Part shown: piece by piece, positions 11,855 through 23,572 of the stretch
Layout: each line of letters begins with the position of its first letter
Numbering within the stretch: position 1 is the stretch's first letter
NCBI GenBank assembly: GCA_016218045.1
Contig: JACRFB010000013.1
Location: 62,001 to 126,000 of the forward strand
DNA from: Ignavibacteriota bacterium
GTDB taxonomy: Bacteria > Bacteroidota > Ignavibacteria > SZUA-365
DNA length: 64,000 nucleotides
Reading direction: 5' to 3'
Program-made: the position numbers and the translations under genes
The notes under the pieces: model-generated
Seen by the model: the letters and a program-made list of their open reading frames with translations, nothing else
Told to the model about the DNA's origin: nothing
Databases searched by the model: none

Positions 11855-11938
11855 CTTCCCTCTTCTCTCTTCTCTCTTCTCTCTTCCCCCTTCCCCCTTC
11901 CCCTTTCTACCTTCTACTTTCCACCTTCTACTTTCCAC
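11855..11938. repeat. Heptamer tandem tract (12 units)
   Basis: Twelve consecutive 7-bp units: CTTCCCT, three CTTCTCT, three CTTCCCC, TTTCTAC, CTTCTAC, TTTCCAC, CTTCTAC, TTTCCAC. The last four units share their sequence with the tract at 5062. The right end lies inside the 3' end of the minus-strand glycosidase-like gene and supplies its last codons and stop. Confidence 0.85.
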
Positions 11939-13689
11939 CGCCCAACAACAACCCTCACACTCCTCATCCCGCCACCACTCTCGAGTAACACCACATACAC
12001 TCCCGCCTCGATCCCCGTCCATCGGATGTCGATTTCTCCGGCAGATGCGGACCAGCGGATCGGGATCGATCTGCCGAGAATGTCGACGAGACGCACTGCG
12101 TGCGGAGACGTCTCGCCCGTCCCGAGTTCTATCCTGACGCTGCCATGCGCCGGCTGCGGGAAGGCACGCAATACGGCATCATCGGGACGCGCGGTGCCGG
12201 CGATGCCCGTGCTGCTGGTATCGCGAAGAATGACACAATCACACGAGGGAACTGTCACGCTGTGACCCGCGGGTGTGTACTCGACGGAATATGACGGAAG
12301 GGAGCCGTCCGCGCGAACATCGCCGCCACCGACGGGCCGGACGATGCTCCACGACGAGCCCGCGAGGAGGTAGCCGGCTTCAGTGTCCGCAGTGTTACAG
12401 AGCACCATGCCCCGCGAATAGAGGCGGCGCCACAGCGAGTTTGCTCCGGTGCCCTGTTCGCGAAGTGGATCGAGCGTCGCGGGGCAGGGACTCTGTTCCC
12501 CGAGATCGATCTCGTATGCCGCATACCATTCGACACCCTGATTGCCGAGAAAATTCACGTAGCTGTTTTCGTTTTTAACAAGCATGAACATGCCGATGAG
12601 CCGGGCCGCCTCCTCGGGCTGCGCAGGATACGCCTGAGCGAGAAGAATTTTCCCGCGGCCCGTCACATGCCGCACGATACGTTCCAGAGTCAGATACATG
12701 TCGCCGATTGTGGCCTGTCCGAAACTCTCCACCATGACACCGTCCACTGTCTCGCCCTGCGCGTCACCATCGAGCCACACGGGATCATACACCGTGGTGA
12801 TCATCTGATCCGTGTTCGGCAGAACAAGGAAAGCCGTGTCCGCCGCATGAAACGCGCGGTACACATGCTGGAAATAGCTCCGGTACGTGTTGTTCATGTA
12901 CTGCGAGAATTTTGTGCGCGAGTCCATCGTCCCCGCGTATCCGTACGGTTTGTGCGGCGCCATCCACCAGTCGAAGTTCCCCGGCTGCGGATTCCAGACG
13001 TTCGGGTTGAACAACGAGGCGTTGGTCTCGACAGCCACATCGAAGAACATGCCCTGATTGCCGTTGCCCGACATCCACTCCAACGACACCGCGCTCAGGT
13101 ACGCCCGCCAATGCGCATCGTCCATGTTCATCAGCCAGTACGGATCGCGATGCCACACACGTTTCGCGGGCAGCACCTCGTCGTAGTGCTGGAACATCGC
13201 CTCGAAGGAGGGACTGTTCTCGGCAATGCCGCGGTCCACAAGCCAGGGCCGGAAATACTCGGTGTATTCGGACACATAACGCTTGGGTGTGACGACACCG
13301 ATGAAGTCGCTGCCGGAATTGTCCTTGGGATCCGGACAGTCGCTGTTGTGCGCGGGATTGAGTCCGGCCGCCAAGTGATACGACACCGCCATAAAATTCG
13401 AATTCACGGCTTCGAACTCCGCGAGCTGATCGCGGAATATCTTTTGTGTGCCGATGTAGTTCCTCGCCGCAAAACCCACCTGCGCGGGTGTCACCCATTG
13501 CGGCACGATTTGATCGGCCCAGACGAGATTCCAGCGCAGCGACGAGGGCAGCACCTTCCCGCCGGGCAGCCGCAGCGTCCGCATGATCGGCGCGGGTCCC
13601 GGATTACTGGGCGGCCATGTATGGGACTGTGCGGCGGCGATGACGCTGATACAACAGATCACTGGACCCAATACCAGATATCGTTTCAT
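11914..13689 (-). CDS. Putative glycoside hydrolase (GHL15-like) with T9SS sorting domain (591 aa)
   Basis: Secreted protein with a signal peptide (about residues 1-20, ending AAAQS). It then has a catalytic-barrel-like region of about 450 residues with aromatic-rich motifs such as GNQGMFFDVAVET, NFDWWMAPH and DGVMVESFG. The closest family I can name is the hypothetical glycosyl hydrolase GHL15 group; activity and substrate are unproven. The C-terminus is a T9SS-type sorting domain (AFPQPAHGSVRIELGTG, then LVDILGRSIPI, then GVYVVLLES). The final residues RWKVEGGK and the stop codon are read from an intergenic heptamer repeat, suggesting that the original stop was lost. AGGAG precedes the ATG by seven bases. 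Confidence 0.65.
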   Translation of the reverse strand: MKRYLVLGPVICCISVIAAAQSHTWPPSNPGPAPIMRTLRLPGGKVLPSSLRWNLVWADQIVPQWVTPAQVGFAARNYIGTQKIFRDQLAEFEAVNSNFMAVSYHLAAGLNPAHNSDCPDPKDNSGSDFIGVVTPKRYVSEYTEYFRPWLVDRGIAENSPSFEAMFQHYDEVLPAKRVWHRDPYWLMNMDDAHWRAYLSAVSLEWMSGNGNQGMFFDVAVETNASLFNPNVWNPQPGNFDWWMAPHKPYGYAGTMDSRTKFSQYMNNTYRSYFQHVYRAFHAADTAFLVLPNTDQMITTVYDPVWLDGDAQGETVDGVMVESFGQATIGDMYLTLERIVRHVTGRGKILLAQAYPAQPEEAARLIGMFMLVKNENSYVNFLGNQGVEWYAAYEIDLGEQSPCPATLDPLREQGTGANSLWRRLYSRGMVLCNTADTEAGYLLAGSSWSIVRPVGGGDVRADGSLPSYSVEYTPAGHSVTVPSCDCVILRDTSSTGIAGTARPDDAVLRAFPQPAHGSVRIELGTGETSPHAVRLVDILGRSIPIRWSASAGEIDIRWTGIEAGVYVVLLESGGGMRSVRVVVGRWKVEGGK

Positions 13690-13786: not shown

Positions 13787-16159
13787 TCACCGCGGCGTTT
13801 TCTGCGCCGCGATCGAATCCACTCGCTGCATGTAGCGGCGGTTCATCGTCGGATTCGTGGCAAACGATGTTCCGTTCCAGTACCTGACCAGGGGTACAAG
13901 CCGCCGGGCATATTCCACGCGCGGAACAGGGGGGATACGCTGCTTCGACACGAACCAGTCATAGGCATCTTCAAATGTAGAAGTTGTCTTGGCCGAGAGA
14001 CAGCGCATTGTGCGTGGATCAAACGAATAGTGCAGGGAAATGTGTTCAAATCTCTTGCCTGTTACATCGTCGCGCACGATTCCATGCAGGCAGTTGACGG
14101 TTACGATCGAGTCGTTCGCAGCCATTATTTCAGCGCCTTGATACGATTCTTGTCCGTACCGGGCAATGATGTCGGGAATGGGAAACAGGATGTAATACAT
14201 CTCCGGCGCGGGAGGAAGCACAGGTTGCAGAAGTGTGTGTAACGGGCTCTGAGGCGATACACCGTATACGTGGTCCGGATCCAACACTACCAGAACCGGC
14301 TGCATGTACCCGTTCAAAGTGCCGGCCGCAAGAATTTTCAGGCGGCGGTCCTGGCCGACACGCGCTGTGCGCAACGCCTTGAGATTGCCGATGTGCAGAT
14401 ATCGCCCGAGGAAATTGCCGCCGGTATCAACAACCGACACGGTGCAACTGTAGGCATCGTTTGTTGCCGCCACAACAATGCGCGGCGGATGAACTGCATC
14501 ACGTTCGAGAACTTGTAGCGCGTTGAGTCGAAAGCGCGAACACGTCAAGTAGTTCCCCTCGAGTGTTTCGAGCGGGAAGCCCAGATACGCGCGCCACTGC
14601 TCCTCTTTCTCGGGGTTGTAACAATAGATGTAGTCCGAAAATCCATCCTTGGGCCTGGGATGCCCAAAAACCACCTCGTTCCTTCCGTCCCCATTCAAAT
14701 CGACGATGGCTGCCGACGACCACGTGCGCCCGTTTTGTTGTATGTCGAACTCGTGTATCGGCTCCTCATCCGGACCGTGCGGCACCGACCACAGTTCCTT
14801 CCCGCGTGCATTCATCACCACTATCTGATTATCGCGTGTAACATAGGTGGAAGGATTCGTGTCGAAATCCGCGATGAACATCAACCAGGTGCTCAGCAGC
14901 GATATTGTCAACAGACTCGACACAATCGCGATGTTGCGCATATTCCGCCGAAGCGTCAACCGGACACGCTCGCGCATCGGGCGGCGGCGTGTGTGAATGG
15001 TGACACGGTTGTTGAACACGTCGCGAAGCGAACGCACAGGCACCACTTCAAACGACCGCCGCGGATGTGCTGCGCGAAGTGTGTCGAGCCGCTGCTGGAC
15101 GGCGGCTTCGTTCTCTCGCGGCAGCGCCAGGACACTGAACGGCGAGTACCACAGCGACTCGGCCTTCAACACGCAATGAGTTACCTCGAGCGGCAGTACG
15201 GTTCCGTCGCCTGTTATGCGTCCTGTAAACACTGTGCCCGCGGGAACGGTGAAGTATTCGGCATTGTCCCGCGTGCGGCTCCACTCCGCCAGTCCGCACA
15301 CGGCCGCTCCCAGGCCGAGCGAACGCCCTTCGATCGCCATGTTATTTTCGGAGAAGGACACGTCGAGCGTGAGGCGTTCCTGTGCCTGCGACCCGTGCTG
15401 CAGCCACGCGGCGCCGCTACGTATAGCGTGCAGCGCTTCGTGCAGCTCGATGTTCACATCGGCGGGCAGTGGTGAATCGCCGCTGTGACTTACGCCATCG
15501 TCGTCGCTGCTGCCTTCGTGTCGAAACACACGCATATGTAATTGCGCACACGAACCGTATGGAACAAAGCCGCGCAGTGCGCCGTGTGTTGTGTCGTTTT
15601 CCAGAACGGGGATAGAGACGACTCCCGGCGGCCGCAGCAGCACCGCGTCCCACTCCGCGGCAATGCCGCGGTACACGTCGACGAGTCCGGGAGCACTGCC
15701 GTCAAGATGTTCGAGATACGCGTCGAGGATCTCACGCGCGCCCGCACCTGCCGGCGCGTTGTCCCACCCGCCGTCAGGTGCGCCGGGTTTGCCCAGCCAA
15801 CTCTCGAGCCGTCGGATTTGCCCGAGAAGGTGTGTATCGAGTTTCTGTATGTCGCTGCTCGTGAGTCCCGAGTCGGCGACTGATTGCAGCCAGGCAAGGT
15901 CCGCGCGAAGCAGCGCGTAATATTCTGGCGCACAGCCGAGAGCGCTCAATTTCGGAATCACCGAAACGAATTGTGCGTACGCTTCCACGAGGAAACTCCG
16001 CGCCTTCCCGGGATCCGATTGTACACGGAGTGTCTCGAGCCATTCATGTAAAACCCGTGCCTGATTGCGCGGACTGTGATGCAGGTAGTACAACGATTCG
16101 TGCACCAACTCCTGTGTGTGGTGCAATTCCGCAGTGCTCAGCATTTCACGTCGTGCCAC
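13787..16159 (-). CDS. Membrane protein with Lon-protease-like domain and FG-GAP-like exodomain, copy 2 (790 aa)
   Basis: No named family fits the whole protein. Residues 1-170 are helical, starting with a segment shared with the upstream paralogue (STAELHH, YYLHHSPRNQA). Residues about 265-385 look like the Lon (S16) proteolytic domain: EGRS280-LGLGAAV matches the Ser motif, FTGRITGDGTVLPLE matches the conserved TG-x-I...VxP strand, LK332-AESL matches the Lys motif, and LALPREN matches the following strand. A transmembrane helix lies at about 409-429. The C-terminal 360 residues are extracytoplasmic, with DLNGDGRNEVVFGHP (487-501), an FG-GAP calcium-binding-type repeat. The start codon is GTG; ATG at 16144 (MLSTAEL) aligns better with the paralogue. 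It is the last gene of a four-gene run, 46 bp after its paralogue. Confidence 0.7.
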   Translation of the reverse strand: MARREMLSTAELHHTQELVHESLYYLHHSPRNQARVLHEWLETLRVQSDPGKARSFLVEAYAQFVSVIPKLSALGCAPEYYALLRADLAWLQSVADSGLTSSDIQKLDTHLLGQIRRLESWLGKPGAPDGGWDNAPAGAGAREILDAYLEHLDGSAPGLVDVYRGIAAEWDAVLLRPPGVVSIPVLENDTTHGALRGFVPYGSCAQLHMRVFRHEGSSDDDGVSHSGDSPLPADVNIELHEALHAIRSGAAWLQHGSQAQERLTLDVSFSENNMAIEGRSLGLGAAVCGLAEWSRTRDNAEYFTVPAGTVFTGRITGDGTVLPLEVTHCVLKAESLWYSPFSVLALPRENEAAVQQRLDTLRAAHPRRSFEVVPVRSLRDVFNNRVTIHTRRRPMRERVRLTLRRNMRNIAIVSSLLTISLLSTWLMFIADFDTNPSTYVTRDNQIVVMNARGKELWSVPHGPDEEPIHEFDIQQNGRTWSSAAIVDLNGDGRNEVVFGHPRPKDGFSDYIYCYNPEKEEQWRAYLGFPLETLEGNYLTCSRFRLNALQVLERDAVHPPRIVVAATNDAYSCTVSVVDTGGNFLGRYLHIGNLKALRTARVGQDRRLKILAAGTLNGYMQPVLVVLDPDHVYGVSPQSPLHTLLQPVLPPAPEMYYILFPIPDIIARYGQESYQGAEIMAANDSIVTVNCLHGIVRDDVTGKRFEHISLHYSFDPRTMRCLSAKTTSTFEDAYDWFVSKQRIPPVPRVEYARRLVPLVRYWNGTSFATNPTMNRRYMQRVDSIAAQKTPR

Positions 16160-16205
16160 TGTCCTTGATACATCTTATACCGGCCATCTCTCTGCGGCTG
16201 TTCTC

Positions 16206-18536
16206 TCATTGAATCCTGTATCCCGGCTTCAACTTCCGCCACGTGTTGTAGTCGACAAACGACTGTCCCGTCCAATAGCGGATCCCGCGCAGGAACTCCT
16301 CTTTCTCATCCCCTCGAGGCCAAGGTTTTCGCTCGATGATGAAGCCTCTGCGGTTGTCGTATTGCGACGACGTCCTCACTTTCATTGGTCGTAACGACCA
16401 GTCGAGATCAAAATCGATCCAGGCCCATTCTCCCGCGTACGACGGTGCATCGTCGGGTATCATCACACTGAACAGTTTTATCGTGATGGTGCTGTCGGTT
16501 CTGTTTGCAACAATAGCGTAGGGAATCCGCCCATCCCCTACAACCCGCGCGAGTGTGGTTTGTGGTAGCAGGAGATACGCATCCTCCCGGTTCCGCCGTA
16601 ATACCGGCCAGATGAGGTCGTGTGAGAGCGTTTGTGGGCAGGTACCGTTGATACTATCGGGATCGAGCACGGCAACGATTGCGCCCTCGAAGCCGTTGTG
16701 CTGACCTGCAAGCACGATTTTTCCGCTCCTGCCGCGACGCGGAGGGAGCACGATGTAATTTCGTATCGCTCCGATATGGATATACCTGCCCTGCACATTC
16801 AACGCGGTGTCCATAAGCGTCAGCGCATGAGGATAGTAGTTTTTTCCCACGTTCACGAGAACACTCTTCTGTCCGGTGGATTTCAGCATCCCATCCCATA
16901 GGTGTGTTATCGTTACCGGATCTTCGCGGTAATCACCTTCCTTGGTGCGCACTCCGAAAAAGAGATCGCGTTTCCACCGCACCGTGCCGTCGCTATTGTA
17001 ACACGTCAGCCATTCCGAACGACCGCGCTGAAGCCCGTATGTACTGGTCAGAACCTCGTTTCTTCCATCATCATCGAGATCCACGCACCGTGCATACATC
17101 GTGTCGACGCTATGCACGATGGTTTCCTCCGTCAGTCCCCTGCGGGACACTTTCGTGGGATACCCCGCCGGTGCGCGCCAGAGTTCTTTCCCGTTTTTAT
17201 TCCAGACGACAAACTCGTTTTCCATCAGGGTTGTCCTGTATGGATTCGTATCGAGGTCCACATTGAAGATGTACCACGCTGCAACGGTGCAGAGCAGCAG
17301 CATGGTGGATACGATCGCGAGGACGGTGGCGTGTCTTCGTGCGGCGCGACCCGCGCGTTCCGCAACACTCCGCGTCCGGATGTCGATCACGGCCCGGCTG
17401 TTGTACACATCGGCGAGTTCCCGCGCGGGATACAGGCGCGCGTGCCGCTGCGGGTGCAGCGTCTGCAATGTGTCGAGGCGCGCCTGCGCAATTGCCTCGT
17501 TCGCCTTGGGCAGCACAAGGGCCTGATACGGAGAGTAGTGCAGCAGCTCCGCCTTGCGCGCGATGTGTTCCTCGTCGAGTGCGATCGTGTTTCCGTCGCG
17601 TGTGATACGGCCTGTGAAAAGCACCCCCGCGCGCAACTGCACGTGATTGCGGCGGTGAATCTCCTCGCTCCATGCGGCGAGCATTCCCGCGGCGGCGCCA
17701 AGCCCGACGGAACGACCGACGAGACGCAGGTCGCCGTTCGAACTCGCAATGTCGACGATCAGTCGCCCGCCATCCGTATGCCGTTCGAATTGCGCCAGTG
17801 TCGCACGCATGGCCGCGAGTGCCGCTGTTACTTCGTCGAACGTCTCCGGTGTCGCCTGCTGCGCGTCCGCGAAACGCAGCACATCTTGTTCCTCGCCGCC
17901 TGTCGCCCGACGCATGCGCACATGCAACTGCCCTATCGCGCCGAAGGGGTGGAAGTCGCGTATCTCTCCTTCCGTGAGATCGTGTTCCAGGAGGGGAATG
18001 AACACGGTATCGGCGGCCGCTTGTACCTGGGCGTCCCATTCGTCCGCGATCCTGCGATACTCCTCGGCGCGTGTGTCAGTCTGTGCCTCAAGCCGTGTGA
18101 TGTATTCCTCGAGCCGTTCACGTTCGGTGCCTCCCTCACGTCCAGTGACGGCATCTACGGCGTTACCACTCTCCACCTCGCCCAGCCAGGCAAGGACGCT
18201 TCTCTGCAGATACACCAGACGTGCGTCCGCGCGTGATACATCGGCCGCGTCGAAGGCGTCCGGCACTGCGGATACGGCGCGCCGCACGGTGTCATGCAAC
18301 TGTGCTGGAAACGACGGCGGACAGCCAATGGCGGTCAGTGCCGGGATCACTTCAAACAGTTGTGCGGTGGCCTCGAGGATGAAGCTCCGCGCCCGCGCGC
18401 CGTGCGCGGGTGCGAGAATACGATCGATCCAGTCGTGCAGAATCAGCGCGCGATTGCGCGGGCTGTGCTGCAGGTACAGCAACTGCTCCCTGATGTGCTG
18501 CTGCTCGTGATGCAGTTCCGCGGTTGTGAGTGGCAT
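16206..18536 (-). CDS. Membrane protein with Lon-protease-like domain and FG-GAP-like exodomain, copy 1 (776 aa)
   Basis: Tandem paralogue of the downstream gene with the same order of parts. The N-terminal helical domain (TTAELHHEQQHIREQLLYLQ, HSPRNRALILHDW) runs to about residue 170 with a coiled-coil-like stretch near 135-170. The Lon-like domain spans about 260-385: VGRS276-VGLGAAAG, FTGRITRDGNTIALD, ARK328-AELL and LVLPKANEA. The presumptive catalytic Ser and Lys are 52 residues apart in both copies. A transmembrane helix lies at about 403-424. The exodomain has CVDLDDDGRNEVLTSTYG (FG-GAP-like) and further beta-propeller-type strands. The orientation puts the protease-like part in the cytoplasm and the propeller outside. 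It starts 6 bp after the zinc-finger gene. A proteolytic signalling role is inferred from these domains. Confidence 0.72.
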   Translation of the reverse strand: MPLTTAELHHEQQHIREQLLYLQHSPRNRALILHDWIDRILAPAHGARARSFILEATAQLFEVIPALTAIGCPPSFPAQLHDTVRRAVSAVPDAFDAADVSRADARLVYLQRSVLAWLGEVESGNAVDAVTGREGGTERERLEEYITRLEAQTDTRAEEYRRIADEWDAQVQAAADTVFIPLLEHDLTEGEIRDFHPFGAIGQLHVRMRRATGGEEQDVLRFADAQQATPETFDEVTAALAAMRATLAQFERHTDGGRLIVDIASSNGDLRLVGRSVGLGAAAGMLAAWSEEIHRRNHVQLRAGVLFTGRITRDGNTIALDEEHIARKAELLHYSPYQALVLPKANEAIAQARLDTLQTLHPQRHARLYPARELADVYNSRAVIDIRTRSVAERAGRAARRHATVLAIVSTMLLLCTVAAWYIFNVDLDTNPYRTTLMENEFVVWNKNGKELWRAPAGYPTKVSRRGLTEETIVHSVDTMYARCVDLDDDGRNEVLTSTYGLQRGRSEWLTCYNSDGTVRWKRDLFFGVRTKEGDYREDPVTITHLWDGMLKSTGQKSVLVNVGKNYYPHALTLMDTALNVQGRYIHIGAIRNYIVLPPRRGRSGKIVLAGQHNGFEGAIVAVLDPDSINGTCPQTLSHDLIWPVLRRNREDAYLLLPQTTLARVVGDGRIPYAIVANRTDSTITIKLFSVMIPDDAPSYAGEWAWIDFDLDWSLRPMKVRTSSQYDNRRGFIIERKPWPRGDEKEEFLRGIRYWTGQSFVDYNTWRKLKPGYRIQ

Positions 18537-18542
18537 GTGTCG

Positions 18543-19400
18543 TCAGTACACCGTCAGGTGACCTCCCTTCGTGAGTGTCGCCGCGGGCAACATCGCCTCA
18601 CCTTGGGTGAATGGTACCAGATGCCTGCCGCCGTCGGGAGTTTCCACCAACAGGGCGTGATCGTCCACGGCCGCGTCCGCGCCGCGGTGCCGTATGCGTA
18701 GTGTGCCCGCCGCTTCACCCGCGCTTGTTTCGAGCGTGCTTCCGTCGTCGAGCGACAGGATACCGGTCAACTCGCCCGCCTCCATGCGCCCACGTGCCCG
18801 CTGCGCGTGCAGCCGTGCAACACCACCGGTCAACGTCGATGCGGACGAGTGGGGCAGCCGTACCTCGCCCGTCGCGTCGGTGATATACATCCCGCGGCCA
18901 CCGCTGAATTCCAGCACGACATCCGACATGTAGACCTCGTAATCGGAGACGATCTGAAGAATGGTCCCGTGTTCGACATTGTCGGCCATGATGCGGAGCA
19001 ACGTCGATTCGTCGCCGGTGGCAAGTGTTTGAATGGCGACAAAGCGCGGCTTCCGATCCACATCCTGCGCGGCGAGGGCGATGGTGGGCGGTGGAGCGCC
19101 GTGTATTGTACGCCTGCGCTGCACCGGCAGCATTTCTAACGTGGTGGCATGCGACTGCGGCGTAATGGCCCCGATGGCCTCCAGTTCTGCGAATACTGCT
19201 GCCGGCGGTTCCTGCGCGAGTGTCTCGCTCAGCGCCGCGTGAGCGGCGCGAAATACGTCGGCCGTCTCGGCACAGAACGAGCACTCCGCAAGATGCGCGC
19301 GTACGAGACCGGACTGTTCCGAGTCGGAGATACCCAGCACAAAACGCTCGATCTCGCGTTCGGGAGGATGTTCGGAGGGTTGTGAATGTGTATGTGTCAT
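18543..19400 (-). CDS. Soluble anti-sigma-like zinc-finger protein (285 aa)
   Basis: The N-terminal 60 residues hold an HxxxCxxC zinc-binding motif (H36-L-A-E-C40-S-F-C43) as in ZAS/zf-HC2 anti-sigma factors, with the typical preceding acidic helix (EREIERFVLGI). Unlike most ZAS proteins there is no transmembrane helix. After a linker, residues about 105-285 are beta-strand-rich (LLRIMADNVEHGTILQIVSD, LSLDDGSTLETSAG) without a catalytic motif. The gene lies 6 bp upstream of the Lon/FG-GAP pair and 59 bp after the helical gene at 19460, so it probably couples a transcription-related regulator to those membrane proteins. The binding partner is inferred from gene order only. Confidence 0.65.
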   Translation of the reverse strand: MTHTHSQPSEHPPEREIERFVLGISDSEQSGLVRAHLAECSFCAETADVFRAAHAALSETLAQEPPAAVFAELEAIGAITPQSHATTLEMLPVQRRRTIHGAPPPTIALAAQDVDRKPRFVAIQTLATGDESTLLRIMADNVEHGTILQIVSDYEVYMSDVVLEFSGGRGMYITDATGEVRLPHSSASTLTGGVARLHAQRARGRMEAGELTGILSLDDGSTLETSAGEAAGTLRIRHRGADAAVDDHALLVETPDGGRHLVPFTQGEAMLPAATLTKGGHLTVY

Positions 19401-19459
19401 GGCTGTCTGTTTCTTTGTACCGTCATGTCGAGCCCGTTGCCGAAAAACTTTTCAAAATG

Positions 19460-20527
19460 TCACGGGAGAAGGTGATCCCTGCCCACACGGAAGAGATATT
19501 CCACCTTCGACCGCCAGAGGTCGCGGTATTCGATGTAGGAATCCGTGCCGAATGCGGCATGGTAGTAATCGTACAAGGCTCTGCATTCGCCGTCGGCCAT
19601 GTCCTCGAACACGCGGCGCATCATCAGGCGCAGCGCCCCCGCCCGCTCGCGCGGCACACTGCCGCGTTGTGTGTAGCGCAGGAGTATTTCGCCCACATGT
19701 TCCACCGCGCGATCCACGCGGCGCTGCACCCCTTCACGCTCCATTGACACGGTGGTCGGATCGTTCACCTGCTCGACAGCGGGTTTGTGCAGAGCGTGGA
19801 AATCGCGCAGTAGCGCGGCAAGCCCCAGCAGCGGATACAGACGCCGGTATTCCGTCTGCGCCGAAAAAATATCGAACACCGCGTCCACCAGATGTGACGC
19901 GGCGTCACCCGCACGTCCTCTTTCCGCAAGCAGCCGCAGAAGTTCGTCACCGGGCATCTCCGCCCTTTCACGGAGCGGAATGTGTGCGTTGACGCGTAAC
20001 ACAAGCAGCCCGTGTACACTGTGCACAAGTGTATAGCCGCCTGATCCTTTCACATGCCGCAGGATGTTGCGCAGCAGGCGCCGGAAGTCCGGATCCAGCT
20101 CGCCGTAGATTTCGGGAATTGTTTGTGACACTTTTTTACTCACCACCATGCGCAGCGCAATAGCCGCTTCTTCCGCGGTACATAACGACGGATCGGCGAA
20201 GCGCTGGCGCAGAAAGGTCCGCAGCTCGTAACAGCTTTCCCCGTCGCGCGGAAGAAAGAGGTCAGTGATACAGCGCCACGCGAAACTCTCCGTCGAATAC
20301 TCCGCGAGCGAAAAGTGCCGCAGGTGCCGCGTGTGGAACGAGGTGATGAGCGACTTCGCAAGCGCGTGACACGTATGCGCAAGCCGCGCGATGTCGCGGT
20401 CTCGTGCGCGGTCGGTCAGCAGTAGGACGATGAGTTCCTTAATGTCCACGGGCGGCTCGGACGGTGAAGGTGTCCCGTTGTCGATGTCAATCGACGTAAT
20501 AGTACGCGACGACGCGGAGAGGCGCAA
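19460..20527 (-). CDS. Unrecognised helical protein, possible divergent sigma-like regulator (up to 355 aa)
   Basis: I do not recognise this protein. It is almost entirely helical, with no membrane segment or signal peptide. The segment from about residue 45 to 125 (STESFAWRCITDLFLPRDGE, then YELRTFLRQRF) and the C-terminal IEYRDLWRSKVEYLFR loosely recall the spacing of sigma regions 2 and 4, but no diagnostic motif is present. It is the first gene of the run that includes the zinc-finger anti-sigma-like gene, which is where a sigma factor would be expected. The longest reading starts at TTG 20527 without a ribosome site; GTG at 20449 (VDIKELIVLL) is an equally plausible start. A DNA-binding or regulatory function remains a guess. 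Confidence 0.55.
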   Translation of the reverse strand: MRLSASSRTITSIDIDNGTPSPSEPPVDIKELIVLLLTDRARDRDIARLAHTCHALAKSLITSFHTRHLRHFSLAEYSTESFAWRCITDLFLPRDGESCYELRTFLRQRFADPSLCTAEEAAIALRMVVSKKVSQTIPEIYGELDPDFRRLLRNILRHVKGSGGYTLVHSVHGLLVLRVNAHIPLRERAEMPGDELLRLLAERGRAGDAASHLVDAVFDIFSAQTEYRRLYPLLGLAALLRDFHALHKPAVEQVNDPTTVSMEREGVQRRVDRAVEHVGEILLRYTQRGSVPRERAGALRLMMRRVFEDMADGECRALYDYYHAAFGTDSYIEYRDLWRSKVEYLFRVGRDHLLP

Positions 20528-20995: not shown

Positions 20996-21517
20996 AGGGG
21001 GATATCCACTCTTATATCGGCTTTCCTCGAATGTGGAATCAGGCCGAGAATCGTGTGGTGAAACCTAGCGAGAGCGGAATCGATTGCATTCCGTGATTTA
21101 ATCGTAGTGAAACACGCGATCCCCAACGGGTGGAGATCTTTGCAATCCCACAGGAAACTCGTAGGAGTCATAATGTTTTTTTTAATCGGCATTTCGGAGG
21201 TATCAACAAATATTTTCACCGAACACAGGAAAATCTCTGCAGGAAGATGTCCTTGCACCTACCATATCCAAAAGATTGAGGACGACAACTTTGTCACACC
21301 TATTCGTGTTACCTGACTCACTTGCCCTAAAATGATCTGTATGTAAATATTGAATGCAAGTACGACAATACTCGTCATCAACGCCAAGGATCACATGACA
21401 CGGAGCCATGTCACGCGAACAACTCAATCCAGAAATGGTCACGTAGGACGCGTTAACCGTATCGCGCTCGTTCAATCAATCATCCACGTAAATAACCACA
21501 TTCAATGGAATCTCAAC
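20996..21517. other. Intergenic region without recognised gene
   Basis: About 520 bp, AT-richer than its surroundings. Short reading frames exist on both strands, but none has a ribosome site, signal peptide or family resemblance. I found no tRNA-like TPsiC motif and no terminator hairpin with a T-run. Confidence 0.5.
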
Positions 21518-22408
21518 ATGCGAAAATTTCATTTCACTATCCTCATTCTAGCCCTTTCTACCATAGCCGCACACGCTCGCATTCGATGGGTCGATGGTAA
21601 AGGTGGTACTGCACCTGATGGGTTCCCTAAATACCACACGATTCATGATGCCATATCTGCATCTAACGACACGCAGCCACCATCCGTCCCGATTGATACA
21701 GTGAGGATCCTGCCGGGCATATATTCTGAATCAATCACAATAGATAAAAATGTAATTGTGCAAGGTGGCGGCTTTCAGAATACTACGATTACGAGCGATG
21801 AAGAATATACCGTAACGATGAAAACCGGAAAACTGATGTGGGTAAAGATATCAAATACTGCTGGAAGCGGAGTACATATGATGGGTGGTATTCTGACTAA
21901 CTCGGTGGTAATGAACTGTGCAATTTCCGGGGTCGTCTTTGAGGGTGTTGCCAAGGCATATTTCACAATCAGCTTGATGAACGGCGGTGCGGGATTTCTC
22001 CAAAAACACAGTAGTCCAGAATGTTTCATTCTCGGATGCATTTCTTACAAGAACTATTGTGGATGGAAGCAGGAATATGCCGGCGGTCCAATTCATTTTC
22101 AGTATTCTTGTAATTACGGAAATACAGTTGAAAAAGAATACTCCGGGTGGAGCTATTCCTATTATTATGACAACAATGAGAACAGCGATCCCTTGTTCTC
22201 CTCTGATGGAAGTCTTAGGCCTGGGAATGCAAAATTGTACGGGAAGGGGCCGGGAGGGCTTGTCGATTGGGATGGATCCTTGTGCGATATGGGATATTAT
22301 GGTGGCCTAGACGCACCGCTCCTTCCCTACGTAGATCTTCCAGGTTCCATCAAACTCAATACTGATGGCACGATTCAATTCGAAATGTCCGGTCGGGTCG
22401 GATATTAA
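21518..22408 (+). CDS. Secreted right-handed beta-helix-like protein (296 aa)
   Basis: Exported protein; ATG 21518 gives a clear signal peptide (MRKFHFTILILALSTIAAHA). The mature part begins with IRWVDGKGG and YHTIHDAISA, which is typical of pectate-lyase-like beta-helix proteins that open with a 'time/index' segment. Ladder-like strands follow (TVRILPGIYSESITIDKNVI, VQGGGFQNTTITSDEEYTV). The C-terminal part is rich in Tyr, Gly and Asn. There is no obvious T9SS sorting domain, and the next gene, 24 bp downstream, does have one, so the pair may be exported or act together. No catalytic residues can be assigned. The region is more AT-rich than neighbouring housekeeping genes. Confidence 0.6.
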   Translation: MRKFHFTILILALSTIAAHARIRWVDGKGGTAPDGFPKYHTIHDAISASNDTQPPSVPIDTVRILPGIYSESITIDKNVIVQGGGFQNTTITSDEEYTVTMKTGKLMWVKISNTAGSGVHMMGGILTNSVVMNCAISGVVFEGVAKAYFTISLMNGGAGFLQKHSSPECFILGCISYKNYCGWKQEYAGGPIHFQYSCNYGNTVEKEYSGWSYSYYYDNNENSDPLFSSDGSLRPGNAKLYGKGPGGLVDWDGSLCDMGYYGGLDAPLLPYVDLPGSIKLNTDGTIQFEMSGRVGY

Positions 22409-22432
22409 AAACGCGAAAATAGGACGGCTAAC

Positions 22433-23572
22433 ATGAGACTAACACCTCTCCTTCTGACATGCATCGCGTTAACTATAGCGCATGCTCAAAAACAAACCAT
22501 AGACTCTGCAGAGTATTTTATCGGCCGCGATCCCGGCGAGGGACTGGGCATGCATCTCAGGATTCAAAGCGGTGACGCGACAGCACAGATCGACTGGCAA
22601 AACAGCGGAATTCCATTAATTAGCTCCAAAGACCTAGTGTACGTAAGAGTCAAGAGTTCCGGCTTCATCGACGTCAACGGCAATCCCGTTAGAGGAATGT
22701 GGAGTTTACCGGTGGGGATCAAGTTGCCTTCTACTAAGTATCATGGTGGCTCGTATATTGGCACTGCTGCAGTCATGAATGCTGAGATCCGCATCTTCCG
22801 ACCAGGCTTGGGATATCCACTGAAAAAACTGGTTGTACCGTCTGACGGTGCTTTTGATCAGGTCGTCGAACAGCTTCGTGTACGACTTCCGGTAGACAGC
22901 CTACAAGACGGTGACACGCTCATGGTCCGTTTGCAAGGTAAGGATGAAGTATGGGGAGAATGGAAACAGTTCGCTGTTCGCCGGGAGCATCTTCGACTCG
23001 CCAAACCGTACAATCTCAATGTCACGAAAACATCTTCAAATATTCCGTCTGCACACCTGGATTGGGAATGCACTACAAGTGGTTCACTTGGGTTTGCAAT
23101 AGAACGGCGCCGATCTACAGATAGCTGGACAGAGGTTGCCCGAGTATCTGTCAATAATACCAACTACACCGATAGCATAGGATTACTGTTGGGAGAAAAT
23201 TACTGCTGGCGCGTTCGTTCGGTCGGTATTACAACTGTGATGACCTCGGAGCCTTCGGAGGAAAGGTGCCTCACAATTCTCCAATCGAATACGCCTGAAC
23301 CTGCATTTGCACTCGCCCTCGCACAGAACCATCCGAATCCCTTTCCATACACAACAACGCTTCCCTTCCTGCTCGATGCATCGGACCGTGTGACGCTTAC
23401 CGTACACGATGCACTCGGCCGCGAGATAACCCGACTTCTTGCCAATGAGCAGCGCTCTCCCGGCCACCATGCCGTGACCTTCGATGGATCCGCACTCCCA
23501 CCCGGCGTGTATACGTACAGGTTAGCCACACCTGCGGGTGTCTTGTCGAAGACCATGGTCATCACACGATGA
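22433..23572 (+). CDS. T9SS-secreted protein with fibronectin III-like domain (379 aa)
   Basis: Signal peptide at residues 1-18 (LLLTCIALTIAHA). The first 185 residues are a beta-rich domain of unknown family (ERDPGE-like start, IDSAEYFIGRDPGEG). A fibronectin type III-like domain lies at about 190-275 (NVTKTSSNIPSAHLDWECTT, YCWRVRSVG). The C-terminal type A sorting domain is unmistakable: LAQNHPNPFPYTTTLPFLLD, then VHDALGREI and PPGVYTYRL. Such domains are cleaved during type IX secretion. It follows the beta-helix gene by 24 bp and may share its transcript. A GC-rich hairpin lies 79 bp beyond the stop. Confidence 0.75.
   Translation: MRLTPLLLTCIALTIAHAQKQTIDSAEYFIGRDPGEGLGMHLRIQSGDATAQIDWQNSGIPLISSKDLVYVRVKSSGFIDVNGNPVRGMWSLPVGIKLPSTKYHGGSYIGTAAVMNAEIRIFRPGLGYPLKKLVVPSDGAFDQVVEQLRVRLPVDSLQDGDTLMVRLQGKDEVWGEWKQFAVRREHLRLAKPYNLNVTKTSSNIPSAHLDWECTTSGSLGFAIERRRSTDSWTEVARVSVNNTNYTDSIGLLLGENYCWRVRSVGITTVMTSEPSEERCLTILQSNTPEPAFALALAQNHPNPFPYTTTLPFLLDASDRVTLTVHDALGREITRLLANEQRSPGHHAVTFDGSALPPGVYTYRLATPAGVLSKTMVITR

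Follow-up and report, generated by a model that had tools for sequence, protein, structure and literature searches.

A conserved four-gene operon of an Ignavibacteriota bacterium that may couple an outside sensor to cytoplasmic proteolysis of an anti-sigma-type protein

How could an event outside the inner membrane be passed on to a putative regulator in the cytoplasm when the anti-sigma-type protein encoded beside that regulator has no membrane helix of its own? This question is posed by four genes, here called A to D, in a stretch of 64,000 nucleotides from an Ignavibacteriota bacterium (the window; bases 62001–126000 of contig C13, in a genome of 4.77 Mb). The original prediction, made from these letters, described four collinear genes on the minus strand with gaps of 59, 6 and 46 bp, and the list of open reading frames agrees with it exactly (59 bp between A and B, 6 bp between B and C, 46 bp between C and D). 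We propose, at a probability of roughly 0.55, that the products constitute a transmembrane receptor-protease pathway, in which binding of a ligand outside would lead a Lon domain to cleave B and thereby release A. The proposal draws directly on the gene order, the Lon domain with its catalytic dyad, the single transmembrane (TM) helix, the zinc ligands of a ZAS-type protein, the conserved linkage of the genes and an alternative, fused architecture in relatives. The four genes are:

19460–20527, minus strand: gene A, 355 amino acids (aa), TTG start; helical protein, candidate client of B and possible diverged sigma factor
18543–19400, minus strand: gene B, 285 aa; soluble protein of the ZAS anti-sigma type and proposed substrate of the protease
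16206–18536, minus strand: gene C, 776 aa; Lon domain predicted to lie in the cytoplasm, a single TM helix, FG-GAP-like ectodomain
13787–16159, minus strand: gene D, 790 aa, GTG start; paralogue of C with the same architecture

The start codons of A and D are putative, and the alignment of the A family suggests an alternative start of A ∼25 codons further in.

The four genes form a real operon, and they stay linked in relatives. B lies directly downstream of A at 57/70 A loci, and A, B and a Lon receptor stand together at 29/70, a share that is inflated because part of the 70 loci were retrieved through a search with C; among the loci retrieved through A only (L148–L187), a B and/or Lon partner was present in 33/38. 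At the level of whole genomes, the A family (∼340 aa, without known family match) was found in 53/394 sampled genomes of the phylum, representing 41/172 genera, and the Lon receptor in 41/394. A was present too in 39 of these 41 (5.5 expected), with a p-value of 1.6e-39 that is a guide only, as it assumes independent genomes and these are related. Both Lon-positive genomes without A, along with a third that has A, were weak Lon matches (E in the 1e-6 range). Since the A-B-C order is kept in many genera and the genes co-occur at the genome level, the operon lies far beyond chance, and the conserved linkage on which the original prediction had placed its hopes was indeed found. A scan of genome contigs returned four loci and a scan of viral contigs none.

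The receptors C and D are 34% identical (E 1.3e-131) and thus paralogues, and relatives of C occur in 23/41 nearby genomes. The parts of the two proteins, assigned by sequence profile, by comparison of hidden Markov models (HMM-HMM), by hydrophobicity and by alignment, are:

17337–17849, minus strand: Lon/S16-like domain of C, residues 230–400, by profile and HMM-HMM
17709–17711, minus strand: codon of Ser276 of C, putative nucleophile, kept in 48/48 relatives with a letter there
17553–17555, minus strand: codon of Lys328 of C, putative base, kept in 48/49 relatives with a letter there
17268–17324, minus strand: TM helix of C, residues 405–423, by hydrophobicity (Kyte-Doolittle 2.22 at residue 405)
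16209–17249, minus strand: predicted extracytoplasmic FG-GAP-like domain of C, residues 430–776, by Pfam matches of relatives and a conserved Asp/Gly motif
14948–15460, minus strand: Lon/S16-like domain of D, residues 234–404, with Ser280 and Lys332, by alignment
14870–14926, minus strand: TM helix of D, residues 412–430 (Kyte-Doolittle 1.98 at residue 412)
13790–14854, minus strand: predicted extracytoplasmic FG-GAP-like domain of D, by a Pfam FG-GAP match below the curated cut-off (E 0.0064) and family context

A profile of 23 C relatives matched the proteolytic domain of an archaeal LonB (1z0c, E 1.9e-6) along with other Lons, a profile of the Lon domain alone matched LonB of A. fulgidus (1z0e, E 1.4e-7), and against the two bona fide Lons encoded in this genome, HMM-HMM comparison reached a probability of 95.9% (E 5.4e-9); in single sequences the Pfam Lon_C match was weak. 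Ser276 of C and Ser280 of D, situated in a GxS loop, and Lys328 of C and Lys332 of D align with the catalytic dyad of Lon, and most of the relatives that bear this dyad are 14–34% identical to C overall. The S16/Lon-like nature originally ascribed to residues 260–390 is therefore upheld by profile, by HMM-HMM comparison and by the conserved dyad. As judged from sequence, C and D carry a genuine Lon/S16-type protease domain, whose proteolytic activity is predicted. Akin to the Lon/LonB peptidases (S16; 1z0e) in the homology of the protease domain and in the Ser-Lys dyad, the receptors differ from them in that this domain is fused to a helical region at the N-terminus as well as to a TM helix and ectodomain, and in that extra residues separate Ser from Lys in C. 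The two residues lie 52 apart in C, as opposed to 43 for the catalytic Ser and Lys of E. coli Lon. The Pfam matches of both receptors and of their aligned relatives include no ATPase domain, and lacking a matched AAA+ ATPase the receptors are not classical Lons.

An Arg-rich stretch precedes the TM helix and an acidic stretch follows it, charges that place the Lon domain inside and the C-terminal domain outside in the predicted topology and that fit the arrangement first suggested, an outside sensor with a protease-like domain within. Pfam FG-GAP_3 was matched in 7/23 and FG-GAP in 6/23 aligned C relatives, and the long C relatives (∼1030 aa) carry Laminin_G_3 (LamG) instead of FG-GAP. When the four proteins were searched singly, the weak FG-GAP match of D was all that Pfam yielded. 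Profile and Pfam evidence together thus bear out the description of C and D as paralogues in which a single TM helix connects a Lon-like domain with an FG-GAP-like ectodomain. At another locus (L155:1–6688), three consecutive Lon-TM-FG-GAP receptor genes lie behind A and B, as compared with two in the window; multiplied receptors may widen the ligand range.

The proposed substrate is B, for which one region stands out:

19221–19400, minus strand: ZAS region of B with the ligands H11, H36, C40 and C43, in nearly invariant alignment columns and read as such in B itself

B had been described as a ZAS-type HxxxCxxC protein without a membrane helix, and both parts of that description stand: the four ligands are in place, and the protein has no strong hydrophobic stretch, its best 19-residue segment reaching a Kyte-Doolittle value of 0.88 versus 2.22 for C and 1.98 for D. 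The single sequence matched the NCBIfam anti-sigma factor model NF052375 (E 4.4e-8, below the curated cut-off), and the profile of B relatives matched RsiW (5wuq, E 1.5e-4) and 3hug (E 0.0079), which is labelled in the database as a conserved membrane protein and which we take to be an anti-sigma factor. The spacing of the zinc ligands is presumably that of ChrR. The full four-ligand set is present in 34/60 B relatives and HxxxCxxC in 44/60. With the class I (ZAS) anti-sigmas (RsiW 5wuq, 3hug, ChrR) B shares the HxxxCxxC motif, the N-terminal His ligand and the profile match; it differs from them in being soluble, in its extra C-terminal region, in having a separate Lon receptor and in a partner that is no recognisable extracytoplasmic function (ECF) sigma. 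Zinc and non-zinc forms both occur among class I anti-sigma domains, about one third of which are soluble (PMC7406223). These comparisons place B among the anti-sigma-type proteins of class I (ZAS), and as a protein of this type it would be a natural protease substrate; its presumed partner is A.

A itself matched no Pfam, NCBIfam or PDB family, in keeping with its first description as an unrecognised helical protein. An AlphaFold2 (AF2) model of A made from two sequences has a predicted local distance difference test (pLDDT) score of 48 overall, with parts of residues 30–140 at 70–83, and contains the following domain:

20093–20446, minus strand: sigma2-like helical domain of A, residues 28–145, in a low-confidence AF2 model

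The best structural match of this low-confidence domain was the sigma factor ShbA (9isn_F; Z 8.9, root-mean-square deviation 2.7 Å over 92 residues; VIA-align), and sigma-S entries were matched at Z 5.6–6.5, all within the range (Z <13) in which structural matches of helical bundles may be due to chance. The C-terminal half of A has no recognised fold in the AF2 model. No recognisable ECF sigma replaces A beside these receptors in the loci examined, and the single ECF hit near any locus (L155) accompanies A rather than taking its place. We infer that A may be a diverged sigma factor, as the one low-confidence, sigma2-like model suggests; the sequence tests described below do not support this. 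A is probably a sigma-like client of B. At four loci (L170, L174, L178 and L186) A is followed by a member of a family of 169–182 aa, one of which is weakly related to B, and the next 6 kb downstream contain no Lon receptor; these loci represent a further variant.

The partners of A come in a second form. At 19/70 loci A is accompanied by a single fused ZAS-TM-FG-GAP protein, with a Lon receptor within 6 kb in 0/19. In relatives the two architectures, soluble ZAS plus Lon receptor on the one hand and fused ZAS-TM-FG-GAP on the other, are mutually exclusive, and the architecture changes ∼3 times on a tree built from 46 A proteins. An acidobacterial locus (L101:9740–11062) encodes a protein in which a single TM helix links HTH_17 to an FG-GAP ectodomain of this kind, and which looks like a membrane-bound one-component regulator. 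Taken together, these proteins represent natural swaps of output (ZAS, Lon or HTH) on one sensor, and this pattern, with the ectodomain fused to ZAS or to HTH_17-TM, suggests that the ectodomain feeds its signal into transcription.

In the mechanism that we propose as the simplest account, C and D would reside in the inner membrane, their Lon domain with its Ser-Lys dyad facing the cytoplasm and their FG-GAP domain exposed on the other side, while the soluble ZAS protein B would hold A. The ectodomain would bind a ligand from outside, which might be a carbohydrate or a surface polymer, whereupon the Lon domain would be activated or assembled and would cut B; the freed A might then direct transcription, perhaps of secreted proteins of the type IX secretion system (T9SS) type. 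In the fused form, the ligand would have to act on the ZAS domain through the membrane; where the parts are split, the ZAS protein is soluble and the receptor carries a protease in its place. A more specific version holds that the receptor's own cytoplasmic Lon domain cleaves the soluble anti-sigma in one step, that this frees a new, unrecognised sigma lineage (the A family, ∼340 aa, which occurs in two or more of the phylum's classes), and that the arrangement is evolutionarily interchangeable with an anchored ZAS-TM-sensor anti-sigma factor; we regard this version as tentative, with the odds leaning slightly against it.

Precedents exist for the logic of such a pathway. In type III CRISPR, the Lon protease CalpL, activated by cA4, cleaves CalpT, an anti-sigma factor in complex with the ECF sigma CalpS (PMC11417357, PMC12751052). 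The likeness lies in the three-part logic of a sensor-linked Lon protease, an anti-sigma and a sigma(-like) factor, in the position of the Lon protease gene beside the anti-sigma gene, and in size, CalpT having 33 kDa and B 285 aa. By contrast, the sensor here is an extracellular FG-GAP or LamG domain behind a TM helix, there are two receptor paralogues, and A is no recognisable ECF sigma. The SigI/RsgI systems of clostridial carbohydrate sensing (PMC12203970, PMC4711584) resemble the fused relatives in their extracellular sensor, single TM helix and cytoplasmic anti-sigma part, and control of secreted polysaccharide enzymes is a likely common theme. They differ in that ZAS replaces the RsgI N-domain, which was not among the Pfam or NCBIfam matches of B, C and D, and in that the receptor here bears a cytoplasmic Lon-type protease and would not rely on intramembrane proteolysis.

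Several observations, besides the relatedness of the genomes noted above, weigh against our reading. When the domain of A was modelled alone with AF2 the model was poor and the ShbA/sigma match was not reproduced; in HMM-HMM comparisons of A with the ECF sigmas of its own and related genomes the probability was 1–6%, and a reversed control scored higher; and in single-sequence scans of 38 A proteins no Pfam sigma match was among the matches listed. The zinc motif is missing from many B relatives, and 10/70 A loci, several of them at contig edges, have no B or Lon nearby. Moreover, sigma region 2 or region 4 sequence was undetectable in A by Pfam and HMM-HMM. Three sigma models did appear among the weak NCBIfam hits of A proteins (best E 0.023); a profile match of A to sigma was out of register and was hence not used. 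Because the sequence tests were negative and the model match was not repeated, a sigma identity of A would rest mainly on its ZAS partner.

The strongest competitor, in our view unlikely yet deserving of attention, keeps the receptor-protease and B and assigns A a different role, as another helical protein that either is sequestered by B or brings B to Lon; it could, for example, be an adaptor, a factor for protease delivery or a transcription regulator of another kind. This view would account for the failure to detect sigma similarity by sequence, for the length of A, which exceeds that of usual ECF sigmas, and for a C-terminal half without recognised fold. Yet ZAS/class I anti-sigma domains are known to bind sigmas (PMC7406223), the order of A then B mirrors that of sigma then anti-sigma, and the better-modelled part of A, albeit in a low-confidence model, best matches an ECF sigma fold. 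A is also kept where Lon is absent, which argues that it is not simply a Lon adaptor. A further rival does without proteolysis: as the fused ZAS-TM-FG-GAP relatives stand without a Lon receptor in the operon, holding the ZAS domain at the membrane may suffice, and the Lon domain, which has no ATPase domain to unfold a substrate, could be a catalytically silent sensor or scaffold through which the ligand alters the hold of C and D on B, a split version of the anchored anti-sigma. We consider such silence improbable, given that Ser is kept in 48/48 and Lys in 48/49 relatives despite mostly 14–34% overall identity to C, and that CalpL provides the example of a Lon protease partner able to cut an anti-sigma factor (PMC11417357).

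The resemblance of the protein logic to CalpL/CalpT/CalpS could also mean that the linked genes are a module for defence or stress that has nothing to do with sensing the outside, for instance a relative of the CRISPR-type Calp system. This we deem very improbable. PADLOC defence families matched none of A, B, C and D (0/4), in a comparison of these four proteins that did not screen the neighbours and the whole genome for CRISPR; the Pfam matches of the receptors and of their aligned relatives include no SAVED domain; the ectodomains are of the FG-GAP or LamG kind and lie behind a TM helix; and proteins with a T9SS tail are encoded nearby. The receptor-protease pathway remains our preferred reading, and the neighbouring genes offer candidate targets for it:

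11914–13689, minus strand: GHL15-like glycoside hydrolase whose gene starts 97 bp past D; its T9SS-tail match is weak (E 1.9e-4) and falls below the cut-off
21350–22408, plus strand: gene homologous to beta-helix proteins, facing away from A; its own match is a weak Pectinesterase (Pfam)
22433–23572, plus strand: T9SS-tail protein gene (Pfam), facing away from A

As the GHL15-like gene starts on the same strand just past D, the operon possibly comprises five genes, and this gene may be the fifth, a target or a mere neighbour. Homologues of both plus-strand genes adjoin A-B-C at two other loci, L059 and L099, the latter from a Melioribacter metagenome-assembled genome, and the pair at 21350–23572 is a candidate regulon of the A-B-C-D pathway, whose likely output would be secreted proteins. 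Upstream of A at six loci (L069, L071, L081, L091, L075 and L097), a T-rich run is followed after 15–18 bases by GTAT, ∼40–95 bp before the gene. This promoter-like motif, picked after looking, was present upstream of 8/70 A genes versus 7/647 control genes; it was not found upstream of A in the window, nor its stricter form in the same genome, and in view of this post hoc choice and of its absence before A of the window we treat it as a lead only and not as a promoter of the A family.

To what extent is such a system new? The statement that no described system has this combination holds for the combination, and not for the principle, which CalpL/CalpT/CalpS had already established (PMC11417357, PMC12751052). 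In the open-licence literature we found no description of a receptor that unites a sensor outside the cell with a Lon domain inside it and that is paired with both a ZAS protein and a member of the A family, nor did we find there a relevant paper linking zf-HC2 or anti-sigma to FG-GAP. The parts are of known kinds (S16, ZAS, FG-GAP) and protease-anti-sigma cascades are known; their combination is apparently undescribed. If our reading is correct, binding outside the cell would translate directly into cleavage of an anti-sigma in the cytoplasm, with no need for site-1 and site-2 proteases acting as a separate chain, and the Calp cascade of CRISPR would be part of a wider theme of Lon proteases as cutters of anti-sigmas. 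The A family, for which Pfam and NCBIfam give neither function nor partner despite its presence in 53/394 sampled genomes, would thereby gain a function and a testable partner, and perhaps a place as a new branch of sigma factors.

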